Shown: positions 41,360 to 55,211, numbered from the stretch's first letter. The stretch is 64,000 bases of DNA from Thioalkalivibrio sp. ALJ21 (GCF_000378605.1 NZ_KB905157.1:186001-250000), one strand, 5' to 3'. Notes: a model not told the origin generated them from the letters alone. Made by a program: numbers and translations.

Positions 41360-41430
41360 GGGACTGGCCCTCCGGATGAATGTCGGGCAGCCATGGTACC
41401 CGGCAGGCGGGGTGCCTGCCAGCAACGCTA

Positions 41431-41718
41431 CTAGGGAGACGCTGATTGAATCGCGCGTCCGCGCTCGAGTCGCTTTTGCGTGCGAACAAGGCGCGGTGAC
41501 TGCCGTGCAGTCATTCTGCACAAGGGAACCGCAACGCCGTTCCCACGCAAAAGCGGCCGAGCCCCTGCAGTAAATGGCTTGTGGGGTTGGTGCCCCCTGT
41601 TCCCCGATCCTGCGTTGCGCCGCTTGCGGGTAGAACCACTACCCGCTGCACGACGCGCCTTGTCTCGGAAAACAGGGGGCACCAACGCGGACGTGCGATT
41701 CAATCAGCGTCTCCCTAG
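41431..41718. mobile_element. 288-bp MITE-like element with 33-bp inverted ends
   Basis: The ends CTAGGGAGACGCTGATTGAA... at 41431-41463 and the complement at 41686-41718 are 33 bases long with one mismatch. Each end begins with CTAG, which could be a four-base target duplication (YTAR, as in the IS5 family) around a GGGAGACG terminus. No transposase is encoded. It lies in the divergent space between the cyclophilin and gltX genes and may affect their promoters. Assignment to IS5 is inference. Confidence 0.75.
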
Positions 41719-49429: not shown

Positions 49430-50281
49430 TTACTCGATGATCTGGTTGACGTGTTCCAGACCGATCGCGTCGCCTTCCCAGTCCAGATTCCGGGTGGACG
49501 AACGCGGGGCCAGTCGGCGCAGTGAAGCGACCCCTTCGCGATCGATGTGGGCCAGGCGGTGGGGAGTGCCGACATGGCTTTCGATGTTCGCGGCCTGTAC
49601 GACGTCGCTGTAGCTGATCGGGGACTCGGGCTCCGGTTCGCGCTGGAGGTTCTCGTGGTCGGCGACCGCGCGGATGATCTCCGGCTCGAAGTTCCAGTTC
49701 TTCAGCATCGCGCGGCCGATTGCGACGTGCGCGGCATCTGCCGCTGCCTGCAGGGCGCGTGGATCCTCGTAGATCGCCGGCGTCTTCTCCGCACGGCGCA
49801 GGATCGGGATCATGCCGATGTCGTGCACCAGGCCGGCGAGCAGGGCGGTGTCCGGGTCCAGATGCGGATGCCGGCGCGCCAGCAGATAGCTAATGATCGC
49901 GACCTCGAGGCTGTGGTTCCACAACGCCTCCATGCGTTGCCGGATCGCGTCGTTCCCGCTTTGAAAGACCTCTTTCATCGACAGGGCGATGATGGTCTGC
50001 CGCGCCCGCTCCATCCCCAGTCGGGTCACCGCGGAGCGGATGGTCGCGCAGCGGCTCAGCCCCCGATAGGCGGGGCTGTTGGCATGGCGTACCAGCCGCG
50101 TGGCCAGCGCCGTATCACGAGAGATCAGGTTGACCAGGTCGGCGATGGAGCTGGTGTCGTCCTGCACGATGAACAGCGCCTGCACGGAAATATCCGGCAG
50201 GGTCGGGATGTCGATCTGCTGACGTTCCAGATCCGAGCGCAGTCGCTCGAGGAATTTTTCCACTTCCGCGCGGGTGGCCAA
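49430..50281 (-). CDS. HDOD-domain signalling protein
   Basis: The 283-residue protein has an HDOD domain beginning LPTLPDISVQALFIVQDDTSS-like, then LISRDTALATRLVRHANSPAYRGL, LGMERARQTIIALSMKEVF, and GLVHDIGMIPIL with the vestigial HD pair. HDOD proteins act in regulation, often with c-di-GMP or chemotaxis signalling, and generally lack phosphodiesterase activity. A TTG at 50281 with AGGGA upstream is the best start; a longer reading frame would overlap the divergent RNase P gene. It is probably co-transcribed with the BLUF gene. Confidence 0.85.
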   Translation of the reverse strand: MATRAEVEKFLERLRSDLERQQIDIPTLPDISVQALFIVQDDTSSIADLVNLISRDTALATRLVRHANSPAYRGLSRCATIRSAVTRLGMERARQTIIALSMKEVFQSGNDAIRQRMEALWNHSLEVAIISYLLARRHPHLDPDTALLAGLVHDIGMIPILRRAEKTPAIYEDPRALQAAADAAHVAIGRAMLKNWNFEPEIIRAVADHENLQREPEPESPISYSDVVQAANIESHVGTPHRLAHIDREGVASLRRLAPRSSTRNLDWEGDAIGLEHVNQIIE

Positions 50282-50417: not shown

Positions 50418-51008
50418 ATGCGCCGCTTTGTGCTGGATACCAGCGTGTTCACCAACCCGCATGTGGCGGGTCAGTTCGGTGCGGATCCGGAAGACATCCT
50501 GCGGACCTTTCTGCACCTCGCTCGGGACTGCCCGGCCGAGTTCTACATGCCGCTGTCGGTGTACGACGAGTTTCGCGGCATGCGCGATCTCGAGGCCCTG
50601 GCCGCCGATTTCGAGACCGTGGTCTGGGTACGCTCGCCGCGTCGCTTCGCCCTGACACTACCCAGCGACATCCTCTACGAGTTCATCGACGAGGTGCGTA
50701 CACGCATCGACCGCGGGCTGCGCATTGCCGAGGAGCACACGCGCCAGGCCGGTGCAGCCGAATCGCTCAAGCCGGAACTCATTACCCAGCTGCGTGAGCG
50801 CTTTCGCGAGGCCATGCGCAAGGGCCTGGTGGATTCGCGCGAGGATGTCGACGCCGTCCTGCTGGCGATGGAACTCGATGCCGAGCTGGCCAGTGCCGAC
50901 GAGGGCATGCGCAAGCTGGGCAATCGCATGGGGATCAAGCTGGTCACCGCCGACTACCTGCGTCGGGTGATGGAGAATCTCGCGGAGACGGAGCGCCCCG
51001 GCGCCTGA
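50418..51008 (+). CDS. protein-only RNase P, HARP family
   Basis: The 196-residue PIN-like protein starts MRRFVLDTSVFTNPHV with Asp7. It shows AEFYMPLSVYDEFR, SPRRFALTLPSDILYEFIDEVRTRIDRGLRIAEEHTR, DSREDVDAVLLAMELDAELASADEGM (Asp139, Asp143, Asp161) and MGIKLVTADYLRRVMENL. This is a strong match to the Aquifex RNA-free RNase P family (HARP, formerly 'RNA ligase partner protein'). HARP cleaves the 5' leader of pre-tRNA without an RNA subunit. Most bacteria use RnpA plus RnpB RNA, so this may be a second RNase P or serve other RNAs. The ATG at 50418 follows CAGGAGG. It converges on an RNA ligase gene. Confidence 0.93.
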   Translation: MRRFVLDTSVFTNPHVAGQFGADPEDILRTFLHLARDCPAEFYMPLSVYDEFRGMRDLEALAADFETVVWVRSPRRFALTLPSDILYEFIDEVRTRIDRGLRIAEEHTRQAGAAESLKPELITQLRERFREAMRKGLVDSREDVDAVLLAMELDAELASADEGMRKLGNRMGIKLVTADYLRRVMENLAETERPGA

Positions 51009-51024
51009 CCCCGGGCCCGGGTCA
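51006..51024. terminator. palindrome spanning both stop codons of the HARP-ligase pair
   Basis: TGACCCCGGG at 51006-51015 pairs with CCCGGGTCA at 51016-51024 with one bulged C. The TGA at each end is the stop codon of one of the convergent genes, so a single palindrome supplies both stops and could act as a bidirectional terminator. Confidence 0.55.
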
Positions 51025-52122
51025 GTCGTACTGGCGGTCGCCGGCCAGGGCGGAGGCCAGCGTGCCGGTGATGCGGTCGAACTGGCGTTCGAACTCCAGC
51101 AGCCAGTAGCCATCCTCCTCGCGCGGCCCGTCGTCGGCAAAGCTTACGTGACGTCCGCCCGTGGCCTGCATGTGATTCATGAAGTGCAGGGCGTTGGCAT
51201 GCTCGCGAAAGCGGCAGCGATAGCGATGGCCGACGTGCCCCTGCCGTCGGTGTTGAGCGACCGCGCCATGGAGCCCTGACAGCAGTGCCTGGCCCAGTGC
51301 CTGATCGAGGTCGGCGTGGTGCCGATCCGGGTGTTCGGACAGGAAGATCGCGAGCCGTGTCAGGCGGTTGGTGAAATACTCCGGCGGCAGGTCCAGTAGC
51401 TGTTCCGCGCAGACCCGGATATCGGAGACGCAGGAGCTCCCGGTCACATACTTGGCCCGGTGCAGCCCGTCCGCAGTCTTCAGCACCAGTCCCTCGGCGC
51501 CTTCCTCGTCCAGTCGCTGAATCAGGCGCCAGAGTGGCTTGGTGTCGCGCGGGGTGAACTGTCCGTGCAGTGGTGCCGGGGGTAGGGCGTGGCGCTCGAT
51601 CAGTGCGAACTTCTCCGGCTGGGGTACGAAGCCGGGGTGGCCCAGGCGCATCAGATCGAACACGAACAAGCCCACGTCATGGGCGACCCGGGGCGTGGAC
51701 CCTTCCAGGTACGGCGTATCCGGCCCGGCGATCTCCGCGCACAGGATCAGGTCGGGTTCGGCATCGAAGATCACCGGGTCCATGAAATCCACTACCCGGT
51801 CAGTGCTGAATGCGCAGACGTAACCGCCGCGGCTGAACGCATAGACGCGCCCCTGCCAGCGCAGGATGCGCACGTTGAAGCCGTCGATCTTTTCCTCCGC
51901 CCAGAACGGCTGCTCGAACTGCCGTGGCAGCCCGGCCTCCAGCGACTGGATGCGCCCGATCGACGGGTATCCGGGCACCACCGAGCCACCTGGCAGCACC
52001 ACGGAACCACGCGGATAGTGGTTCACCGGTTCCAGCAGGCGGGCGTATTTCAGTCCGTCGAACGTCAGCGCCTCGGCGCGACGATTCTCGATGGCTTCTT
52101 GCAGCACTTGGTGCTCGATCAT
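51022..52122 (-). CDS. ATP-dependent RNA ligase, Rnl3/Pab1020 family
   Basis: The 366-residue nucleotidyltransferase has the ligase lysine motif EEKIDGFNVRI (KxDG, Lys78), VYAFSRGGYVCAF, CAEIAGPDTPY, GLFVFDLMRL, and EGAEGLVLKTADGLHRAKYV (motifs III to V). A C-terminal helical domain follows. This pattern and length fit the archaeal-type dimeric RNA ligases (Pab1020/MTH1221 type), which join or circularise 5'-phosphate and 3'-OH RNA. Its natural substrate in bacteria is unknown. It overlaps the upstream transporter gene by four bases and converges on the HARP gene. Confidence 0.88.
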   Translation of the reverse strand: MIEHQVLQEAIENRRAEALTFDGLKYARLLEPVNHYPRGSVVLPGGSVVPGYPSIGRIQSLEAGLPRQFEQPFWAEEKIDGFNVRILRWQGRVYAFSRGGYVCAFSTDRVVDFMDPVIFDAEPDLILCAEIAGPDTPYLEGSTPRVAHDVGLFVFDLMRLGHPGFVPQPEKFALIERHALPPAPLHGQFTPRDTKPLWRLIQRLDEEGAEGLVLKTADGLHRAKYVTGSSCVSDIRVCAEQLLDLPPEYFTNRLTRLAIFLSEHPDRHHADLDQALGQALLSGLHGAVAQHRRQGHVGHRYRCRFREHANALHFMNHMQATGGRHVSFADDGPREEDGYWLLEFERQFDRITGTLASALAGDRQYD

Positions 52123-53789
52123 GCGGTTTCCGAATCCAGTGTCGAGTCGAGGTCCCGAGGATGGTTTTGCAGGATCTCGCTGTGGCGGCGCGCCTTGTCG
52201 GCCTGAGTCACCAGACGACGCGCCATGCTGATGATCCGCAGCTGCCGCTCCATCTCGGCCATGCTCAGCGAACCGAAGGTCCCCTCGCGCAGCAGCGCGG
52301 CCTTTAGTTCGGCATAGGCGATCTCAACCGATTGCACGGCCTCGGCAGCCGCGATGTTCTCGCCATTTTCGGGTTCCAGGTTGGCCAGGTCGAGGGCGCG
52401 GATAACCTGCTCCTGCCAGGTGCGACGCTGTTCGCTGACGGCCGGGCGTTCCTCGCCGGTGGATTGCCTGCGCAGGTCGCTGATCTGCTCGGCCAATACG
52501 GCAATCTCGCGATGATAGCGGGCGATGCGGACGACCTCGGCGATCCCGTGCCCTATCGCCTGCGGCATGGGGTGGTTGGCGGTGCGGGTGGCGAAATCGC
52601 TGATCGCCGCCGTCAGCTGCTCGACTGCGGCACGCCGGGTGTCCAGGCTGCCCTCGGCTGGTGGGTCGGCCCGCAGGGCCTCACGCGCCATGGAGTGGCT
52701 GATATCGGCGAGACGGTCGGTCTCCTGCAGCAGTGACTGCAGCGCCAGATCCGGCACGCCGGCGCTGTGCCGGTCAAGGAAACGCGGCCGGGCGATGTCT
52801 TCCTCTTCTGTGCGAAAGCGTGTCTGCAGGAAGCGGATCATCGGCGGGGCGACCGGCACCATCAGCGCCACACCCAGCAGGTTGAACGCGGTATGGAACA
52901 GCGCCAGCAGTACCGCCGGGGCCGGGGCCTCCCCGGTGCTGCCCCAGATCCAGGCGATCGCGGCCAGGAACCAGGGCAGGATAAGCAGGGCGACAATTGC
53001 GGTCAGGCCATTGAAGATCACATGGGCCGCGGCGACGCGCTTGGCGTTCGGGGTCGCGCCGATCACGACCAGCAGCGCCTTGACCGTGGTGCCGAGGTTC
53101 GCGCCAATCACGGCGGCGGCGGCCGCTTCCAGCGGAACCGCGCCGCTCATCGCGGCGGTCAGGGCCATGGCCATGGAGGCCGAGGAGCTCTGCATCAGCA
53201 CAGTCAGCAGCGCGCCGAGGCCGACCATGATGACCAGCCCGAGGAAGCCGGGGCGGGCCAGCGCGCCGAGGTCAAAGGTCGCGCTTAGGCCCTCGAAGGC
53301 CTCGCGCAGCACGTCGATGCCGAAGAACAGCAGGCCGAAGCCGGCCAGGGCCAGGCCCAGATAGCGCGGCCGCGCGGCCTTCATGAACAGGTAGAGCAGG
53401 GCGCCGATGCCGATCGCCGGCAGGGCAAAGGCCTCGATGCGGATATTGAAGCCGATCAGCGCGACCAGCCAGCCGGTCATGGTGGTGCCGACGTTGGAGC
53501 CGAAGATCACCCAGACGGACTGGCCGAGCGTCAGCAGACCGGCGTTGGCGAAGCCGATGGTGGCCACGGTGACCGCGCTGGAGGACTGCACCAGCGCGGT
53601 CACACCCATGCCCGAGGCGAGGGCGCGCGGGCGGGTGCGTGTCCACTGCCCGAGGATGTGTTGCAGCGCCTTGCCGCCGGCGGTCTTCAGGCCGTCGGTC
53701 AGCAGGGTCATCCCGAGCAGGAACAGCCCGAGACCGCCGAGGAAGCCGGCGATCAGGGCATAGGTGCTGACGGCTTCGGCCTCCAACAT
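52119..53789 (-). CDS. Na/Pi cotransporter family protein with PhoU-like domain
   Basis: The 556-residue protein has two inverted NptA-type repeats with the signatures VTALVQSSSAVTVATIGFANAG and TVLMQSSSASMAMALTAAMSG in about eight membrane helices. From about residue 340 it has a cytoplasmic helical PhoU-like region. The family (YjbB type) moves phosphate with sodium, usually outwards, when cellular phosphate is high. Its stop overlaps the RNA ligase start (ATGA), and it begins 21 bases after the beta-CASP nuclease gene, so an operon of unusual content is likely. Confidence 0.9.
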   Translation of the reverse strand: MLEAEAVSTYALIAGFLGGLGLFLLGMTLLTDGLKTAGGKALQHILGQWTRTRPRALASGMGVTALVQSSSAVTVATIGFANAGLLTLGQSVWVIFGSNVGTTMTGWLVALIGFNIRIEAFALPAIGIGALLYLFMKAARPRYLGLALAGFGLLFFGIDVLREAFEGLSATFDLGALARPGFLGLVIMVGLGALLTVLMQSSSASMAMALTAAMSGAVPLEAAAAAVIGANLGTTVKALLVVIGATPNAKRVAAAHVIFNGLTAIVALLILPWFLAAIAWIWGSTGEAPAPAVLLALFHTAFNLLGVALMVPVAPPMIRFLQTRFRTEEEDIARPRFLDRHSAGVPDLALQSLLQETDRLADISHSMAREALRADPPAEGSLDTRRAAVEQLTAAISDFATRTANHPMPQAIGHGIAEVVRIARYHREIAVLAEQISDLRRQSTGEERPAVSEQRRTWQEQVIRALDLANLEPENGENIAAAEAVQSVEIAYAELKAALLREGTFGSLSMAEMERQLRIISMARRLVTQADKARRHSEILQNHPRDLDSTLDSETA

Positions 53790-53810
53790 CGGTGCTGATT
53801 TTTCGTGCGG

Positions 53811-55211
53811 TTACAGGGTGATGGTCTCGCCGAAGGCGGGTACATGCGCCTCGGCCCCCAGCTCGTCGCGCAGGCCGGCGGCCAGGGCCTCGCGCGCTTC
53901 CGGCTCGCCGTGGACCAGATGGAACACCGGCTGGTCCTGAAAACCGCGTGCCCAGTCGAGCAGCTGGCTGCGCCCGGCGTGGGCGGAAAAGCCGCCCAGG
54001 GTGTGGACCTTCGCGTTCACTGCGACCTCGTCGCCCAGCAGCTTGACTCGCTCGGCGCCGTCCACCAGCCGCCGTCCCAACGTACCCGCCGCCTGGAAGC
54101 CGACGATCACCAGGTGCGCCTCGCGCCGCCACAGGTTGTACTTCATGTGGTGACGGATGCGCCCGCCATTGCACATGCCGGAGCCGGCAATGATGATCGC
54201 GCCGCCGGTGATGCGGTTGATCGCCATGGATTCCTCCACCGTGCGGCAGACCTGCAGCCCCGGCAGGTAGCCGTTCGGGTCGCCATTCGCGGCCTGGTGG
54301 AGTCGGTCGACGTCCTCCGGGTCCAGTGTCCGGCGCAGGCGGGCGTACAGCTCGGTGACCTTGATCGCCATCGGGCTGTCGAGGAAGACCTTCTGCTGCG
54401 GCAGGCGCCCGGCGTGGTGCAGCATGCTCAGGTGGTAGAGGATCTCCTGGGTGCGGCCCACGGCGAAGGCCGGGATCAGCACGTTGCCGCCGCTCTTGTC
54501 GGCCTCGGCCAGCACCTGCGCGAATTCCTCGACCGTTTCGTCCATTGGGCGGTGGTCGCGGTTGCCATAGGTGCTCTCCAGCAGCACATGATCCGCGTGT
54601 TCCGGGCGAGCCGGCTTGTGCATCAGCACCGCGTCGTCATTGCCGAGGTCGCCGGAGAAGATCAGGTGCCGGTCACGCCCGCCAGAGGGCACGATCAGGC
54701 CCACGATCGCGGAGCCGAGGATATGCCCGGCATCGCGAAAGGTCAGTCGGACCTCGCCCGCGATGGTGCGGGTGTCGCCGTAGGGGATGGCTTGGCAAAG
54801 CCCGAGGGTGGTCGCGACATCATCGATGTCGTAGACCGGCTCCAGCAGCGGCCTGTCCGCGCGCCGGCGCCACTTGTTCTCCCACTCGATGTCCTTGCTC
54901 ATCACGAACGCGGCGTCCTCGAGCATGATCTCGAGCAGCTCCTCCGTGCCCGGCGTGCAGTAGATCGGGCCGCGGTATCCGTCGCGCACCAGCTTGGGCA
55001 GTAGCCCCGAGTGATCGAGGTGGCCGTGGGAGAGGACCACCGCATCGATTGTTTCCGCCAGTTCGGCGAGCGAGGCGCGATTCGCCTCGTCCGCCTCGCT
55101 GTTGCCCTGGTGCAGGCCGCATTCCAGCAGGATGCGGGCGTCGTTGGTCTCGAGGAGATAACGCGATCCGGTGACTTCGCCGGTCGCGCCGAGAAAGGTC
55201 AGTTGTGCCAT
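53811..55211 (-). CDS. beta-CASP metallo-beta-lactamase RNase (CPSF73-like)
   Basis: The 466-residue protein has the metallo-beta-lactamase motif SHGHLDHSG (His62, His64, Asp66, His67), DAGHILGSA and FSGDLGN. It then has the beta-CASP module with ESTYGNRDH (motif A), LIPAFAVGRTQEILYHL, AGSGMCNGGRIRHH (motif B) and the late FSAHAGR with motif C. This is a YSH1/CPSF-73-type exo- or endoribonuclease, a family best known in archaea and eukaryotes. The ATG at 55211 (MAQLTFLGATGEVTGS) is chosen over an ATG six codons upstream. It heads the ligase-transporter gene run. Confidence 0.92.
   Translation of the reverse strand: MAQLTFLGATGEVTGSRYLLETNDARILLECGLHQGNSEADEANRASLAELAETIDAVVLSHGHLDHSGLLPKLVRDGYRGPIYCTPGTEELLEIMLEDAAFVMSKDIEWENKWRRRADRPLLEPVYDIDDVATTLGLCQAIPYGDTRTIAGEVRLTFRDAGHILGSAIVGLIVPSGGRDRHLIFSGDLGNDDAVLMHKPARPEHADHVLLESTYGNRDHRPMDETVEEFAQVLAEADKSGGNVLIPAFAVGRTQEILYHLSMLHHAGRLPQQKVFLDSPMAIKVTELYARLRRTLDPEDVDRLHQAANGDPNGYLPGLQVCRTVEESMAINRITGGAIIIAGSGMCNGGRIRHHMKYNLWRREAHLVIVGFQAAGTLGRRLVDGAERVKLLGDEVAVNAKVHTLGGFSAHAGRSQLLDWARGFQDQPVFHLVHGEPEAREALAAGLRDELGAEAHVPAFGETITL

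Follow-up and report, generated by a model that had tools for sequence, protein, structure and literature searches.

The window analyzed here (a stretch of Thioalkalivibrio DNA, 64 kb in length) probably records the merger of two gene modules within one branch of this genus of soda-lake bacteria, i.e., a lineage-specific arrangement and not a widespread new RNA system. One module would be the published, convergent pair of HARP and an Rnl3-type RNA ligase, which is patchy and probably laterally moving. The other, older and originally separate, would be a pair consisting of a beta-CASP ribonuclease gene (bCASP) and a Na/Pi cotransporter gene (NaPi), which also occurs without HARP or ligase. In one Thioalkalivibrio branch, the ligase appears to have become the third cistron of a bCASP-NaPi operon, with HARP transcribed separately towards it. 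Co-transcription of bCASP, NaPi and the ligase is what we infer from the gene arrangement. What is newly noted relative to the published pair is the ligase as the last gene of this operon, which is a genus-level merger and no new system. The chief clue to the role of HARP in cells that also hold an RNA-based RNase P is its ligase partner.

All four genes of the locus have strong profile matches in the window. These matches and the sequence bear out the gene identities, strands and coordinates (50418–55211) of the original prediction, and the 4-base overlap of NaPi and ligase (52119–52122) and the 21-base gap between bCASP and NaPi that it described are both exact. The features, including a neighboring gene, are as follows:

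49430..50281, minus strand: HDOD-domain protein, start approximate, divergent from HARP (PF08668)
50418..51008, plus strand: HARP, homologue of Aquifex RNase P, 196 aa, PIN_5 metallonuclease, "RNA ligase partner" (PF08745, TIGR03875; ATG at 50418)
51009..51021, no strand: intergenic gap of 13 bases between the HARP and ligase stop codons (from the sequence)
51022..52122, minus strand: ATP-dependent RNA ligase, Pab1020/Rnl3 type, 366 aa (TIGR01209, PF18330)
52119..53789, minus strand: Na/Pi cotransporter with a PhoU-like C-terminal domain, 556 aa (PF02690, NF037997)
53811..55211, minus strand: beta-CASP ribonuclease, TTHA0252 type, 466 aa (PF10996, PF07521; ATG at 55211)

In profile searches, HARP is matched by PF08745 (E-value 1.4e-60, 204.6 bits against a cut-off of 27) and by TIGR03875 (216 bits, over a cut-off of 95). 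The nearest solved structure is 7og5 (265 bits, full-length match), presumably the HARP of Halorhodospira halophila (PMC8266387). Residues Asp7, 139, 143 and 161 correspond to the catalytic quartet of Aq880 (D7, D138, D142 and D161; PMC8266387), are invariant in 44 of 44 alignment rows, and are common to the H. halophila enzyme. The work on that enzyme reports pre-tRNA cleavage activity and leaves genomic partners unaddressed (PMC8266387), whereas the window HARP is known from sequence. In contrast, PMC12153264 cites a lack of pre-tRNA cleavage for four HARPs from bacteria, those of H. halophila and a Thioalkalivibrio among them. Since these reports conflict, the activity of HARP in this organism is uncertain.

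The ligase is matched by TIGR01209 (E-value 1.8e-80, 270 bits, cut-off 137) and PF18330 (59 bits, cut-off 25). Its KIDG nucleotidyl motif lies at residue 78, and EKxDG is present in 42 of 43 alignment rows. Solved structures that match the protein are 3qwu and 2vug (Pab1020). With the latter it shares a nearly full-length match, the KxDG motif and the Ligase Pab1020 C-terminal region, but Pab1020 acts on C/D box RNAs in archaea, whereas the window ligase is bacterial. C/D box RNAs, which are the best-studied substrates of Rnl3 ligases, are archaeal.

NaPi possesses PF02690 Na_Pi_cotrans repeats with QSSS motifs and matches NF037997. For a PhoU domain, no Pfam match was obtained in this protein at E<=5. 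Its structure model is confident in the C-terminal part only, and a fold search with this model is topped by PhoU structures, to which residues of about 345–542 are matched with a Foldseek probability of 1.0 and a target-based TM-score of 0.75, although the E-value is only 5.6e-3. The repeats and the modelled PhoU fold bear out the label "Na/Pi-PhoU protein", the latter half of which is a prediction from the model. In its repeats, QSSS motifs and PhoU-fold tail the protein resembles known Na/Pi-PhoU transporters; unlike them, it shares an operon with a ribonuclease and, in some members of the genus, also with an RNA ligase.

bCASP is composed of MBL, beta-CASP and RMMBL regions, with an HxHxDH motif and without KH domains. 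Its best solved match is Thermus thermophilus TTHA0252 (2dkf; E-value 3.4e-97, nearly whole length). TTHA0252 is reported to act as a 5'-3' exonuclease, and probably also as an endonuclease, with effects on many mRNAs (PMC4229858); unlike the neighborhood of the window bCASP, a link to HARP or ligase is undescribed in the available part of that work. Identity as the archaeal termination factor aCPSF1/FttA was rejected, given a TIGR03675 score of 304 bits against a cut-off of 580, a match starting at position 175 of 631, and the lack of KH domains. Beta-CASP is also the family for which the mainly archaeal distribution claimed in the original prediction fails: it is common in the class (171 of the 369 genomes sampled), and its best solved relative is bacterial.

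The HARP-ligase linkage, by comparison with published work, is real and already described. According to Seshadri and Gopalan (mBio 2025, PMC12153264), 665 of 751 HARP genomes carry the ligase and every ligase genome carries HARP. In bacteria, they find ~80% of HARP-Rnl3 pairs to be linked, usually with the two genes oppositely oriented, and Thioalkalivibrio is among the carriers. This linkage is reproduced in our sample of 369 genomes of the class, where HARP occurs in 17 and the ligase in 16, all 16 of which are HARP-positive (Fisher p 4e-27, relatedness ignored). The two genes are adjacent in 12 of the 17 HARP genomes, and convergent in all 12. Families, co-occurrence, adjacency and opposite orientation are all shared between the window pair and the published pair, but the window ligase additionally ends a bCASP-NaPi operon, and the bCASP and Na/Pi neighbors are unmentioned in the available part of PMC12153264. 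One genome, G300 (L007, L057; assembly 93% complete), is HARP-positive with no Rnl3 ligase detected. Plasmid matches to HARP or ligase are all haloarchaeal, and in two of these plasmids (NZ_CP096020.1 and CP031304.1; hits H5 and H6; L112, 4766–6666) the genes are divergent, a small difference in orientation from the convergent bacterial pairs (n = 2).

Within its order, HARP was found in 29 of 30 genomes of Thioalkalivibrio and 0 of 17 of sister genera. The full four-gene block is present in 13 of the 30, on the T. versutus side of the genus; in these island genomes the HDOD-HARP-ligase-NaPi-bCASP block is kept while group flanks differ. Among the genomes examined, the HDOD gene adjoins HARP in island genomes only (synteny in L019–L028, L065 and L119–L130). 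Two further genomes (G378 and G387) hold bCASP, NaPi and ligase together, with HARP on a separate contig. In a third (G397), the contig holding the trio breaks off some 60 bases beyond the ligase, too early to judge where HARP lies. The HARP-ligase pair without a NaPi orthologue characterizes 14 of the 30 genus members, which have at most distant relatives of bCASP (about 35–47%) or of the transporter (31–38% identity). Conversely, orthologous bCASP and NaPi genes occur on the same strand in two sister-genus genomes that lack HARP and ligase, spaced by about 95 bases in G410 and 1.6 kb in G408. The co-occurrence proposed in the original prediction is thus seen in part of one genus, and the block was absent from the HARP-bearing genomes examined outside Thioalkalivibrio. 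The four-gene set is undescribed in the titles and abstracts of the papers found on beta-CASP together with an RNA ligase.

As bCASP and NaPi also pair up in sister-genus genomes devoid of HARP and ligase, two modules were evidently joined, and the simplest history on sequence grounds would be addition of the ligase, with or without HARP, to a bCASP-NaPi pair. It would be the ligase rather than HARP that joined the operon, because the trio persists with HARP elsewhere and the overlap at the junction recurs. For example, 11 of the 13 island genomes share the 4-base ATGA-type NaPi/ligase overlap, the remaining two having a gap of 31 bases, and so does G397, where the overlapping ligase start is kept at 73% identity. 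In G378 and G387, the ligase lies directly downstream of NaPi (a 22-base overlap and a 47-base gap, by aligned starts) at a ligase identity of 60–62%.

The history of the operon need not have been a single event. On the ligase tree, constraint of the operon ligases to one clade is rejected and operon linkage requires at least three changes. The ligases of Methylonatrum and of two Ectothiorhodospiraceae MAGs nest among those of Thioalkalivibrio, within the clade of the operon bearers (SH-aLRT 96 and 99). The HARP tree is poorly resolved, and also places Methylonatrum, L048 and L029 among T. versutus-side rows; these carry the HARP-ligase pair with no NaPi within the available flanks. Both the non-monophyly of operon ligases and the nesting of Methylonatrum are expected if the pair moves. 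The nested ligases would be explained by lateral transfer of HARP-ligase or by repeated loss of linkage, the operon may also have been gained or lost more than once, and transfer could have run in either direction. For Methylonatrum and the two MAGs themselves (L030, L048 and L029), HARP is 92–94% identical and the ligase is nested in Thioalkalivibrio, and lateral transfer of their HARP and ligase is likely. As a separate observation, the ligase tree groups the window genome with G385/G389/G404 and the NaPi tree with G388/G391/G405, a conflict that suggests recombination inside the block.

Cleavage by metal-dependent PIN nucleases, as by beta-CASP RNases, yields 5'-phosphate and 3'-hydroxyl termini, which are the kind that Rnl3 ligases join. 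As the end chemistries of HARP and Rnl3 fit, a HARP cut could be sealed without end healing, which makes a cut-and-seal pair plausible. HARP would cut structured RNA to yield 5'-phosphate and 3'-hydroxyl ends, and the ATP-dependent ligase would seal them, such that a subset of RNAs might be trimmed, circularised, resealed or repaired. bCASP might trim these RNAs too, or remove them, while the transporter would most simply be an operon passenger. This cut-and-seal mechanism, in which the substrates, end chemistry and joint pathway are all suppositions, is a tentative proposal, possible but short of likely. An extended version, in which bCASP, Rnl3 and usually HARP form a cut-trim-reseal module assembled in soda-lake bacteria, with its expression set by phosphate through the mid-operon Na/Pi-PhoU gene, is quite improbable; the notion of a phosphate link to RNA processing is an idea taken solely from the transporter's position.

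The original prediction offered, as a testable idea, a trim, cleave and reseal pathway for tRNA or other RNA, perhaps tied to phosphate state. In a true four-gene system of this kind, trimming would fall to bCASP, cleavage to HARP and resealing to the ligase, with phosphate supplied or sensed by the Na/Pi-PhoU protein. Retention of the block in 13 genomes despite differing flanks is in keeping with such a system, as is the recurrence of bCASP near HARP in three lineages, matched by no other plausibly relevant family apart from the ligase. The arrangements differ, though: in the other two lineages, bCASP abuts HARP divergently on the non-ligase side (Ectothiorhodospiraceae MAG L033, 2976–5122) or is placed ~4 kb away from the ligase (G343). 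With placement modelled simply, this proximity exceeds chance (2 of 11, binomial p about 9e-4), but the value is post hoc, with many families open to notice. In the class sample, genomes with HARP also have bCASP somewhat more often (13 of 17) than those without (158 of 352, p 0.013), but this is a weak excess that ignores relatedness, and apart from L033 and G343, bCASP in other HARP genera is elsewhere in the genome or absent. Moreover, the block is missing from the other genera examined, the 14 pair-only members lack a NaPi orthologue, a strong Na_Pi_cotrans protein is missing from 7 of the 17 HARP genomes in the class sample, and HARP sits outside the cluster in G378 and G387. A four-gene system is hence unlikely; as a general unit it lacks support, with no instance in the other genera examined and bCASP-NaPi found without HARP or ligase, whereas a bCASP-NaPi-ligase operon within the genus, kept even with HARP elsewhere, bears the idea out in part. 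A more substantial possibility, if still not a probable one, is that the genes are neighbors by inertia, HARP-ligase having landed downstream of an unrelated operon, with the modules linked only through shared transcription of the ligase. The four-gene form is genus-restricted and in the minority even there, the transporter is without an RNA role, and the sister-genus bCASP-NaPi pair stands alone. Against this, the ligase is still the third cistron in G378 and G387 at 60–62% ligase identity with HARP elsewhere, and G397 retains the overlapping ligase start. For the function of HARP, Thioalkalivibrio is useful as a natural comparison among close relatives that have the pair alone, the ligase in a bCASP-NaPi operon, or HARP apart from that operon. 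Such a comparison lets one ask which part of the partnership needs linkage and whether a second RNase participates.

Two other readings concern HARP and the ligase only. That HARP serves this cell as its functional RNase P, as it does in Aquifex, would agree with its intact Asp quartet and its closeness to the H. halophila enzyme with reported pre-tRNA cleavage, yet is extremely unlikely. An RNase P RNA gene (RF00010) is present at G000:C2:1044271–1044617 with 331 bits, where an Aquifex-type RNase P serving alone would be accompanied by no such gene, and a T. versutus transcriptome paper reports expression of this RNA in Thioalkalivibrio (PMC8092127). Further, the four clear tRNA genes in the sample, one from the window and three from a relative, all encode 3'-CCA, which is reported to slow a related HARP about 10-fold (PMC12153264). 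Because the RNase P RNA gene is present, housekeeping maturation of tRNA by HARP is unlikely, and 5' maturation would stay with the RNA-based RNase P. It is also very unlikely that HARP and the ligase are a toxin-antitoxin or defence pair, an idea raised in PMC12153264 and compatible with a PIN-domain nuclease beside a possible repair enzyme in a patchy, probably laterally moving pair. The five proteins have no PADLOC family match, relatives of HARP or ligase were not detected in phage or IMG/VR viral collections, the genes are convergent with no small co-directional antitoxin, and G300 has HARP without any detected ligase.

At the HARP-ligase junction, a near-palindrome, TGACCCCGGGCCCGGGTCA, spans both convergent stop codons (window 51006–51024). 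Short palindromes like TGACCCCGGGCCCGGGTCA also occur in G382 and G404. The stop-to-stop gap is 10–88 bases in relatives, several of which contain a hairpin or REP-like repeat in it. A REP-like palindrome beginning GCCTGCAAGCAGGCTCCTACA lies in the 87–88-base gap of L127, L128 and L065, and is absent from the window's gap. Rfam returned zero RNAs above gathering score near the locus, and promoter and terminator scans of the locus gave about the same output as shuffled sequence. Elsewhere in the window, a 288-base stretch (41430–41717) has three copies of 69–97% identity in one contig of G223, the single contig covered by the synteny comparison with that genome, and resembles a dispersed repeat.
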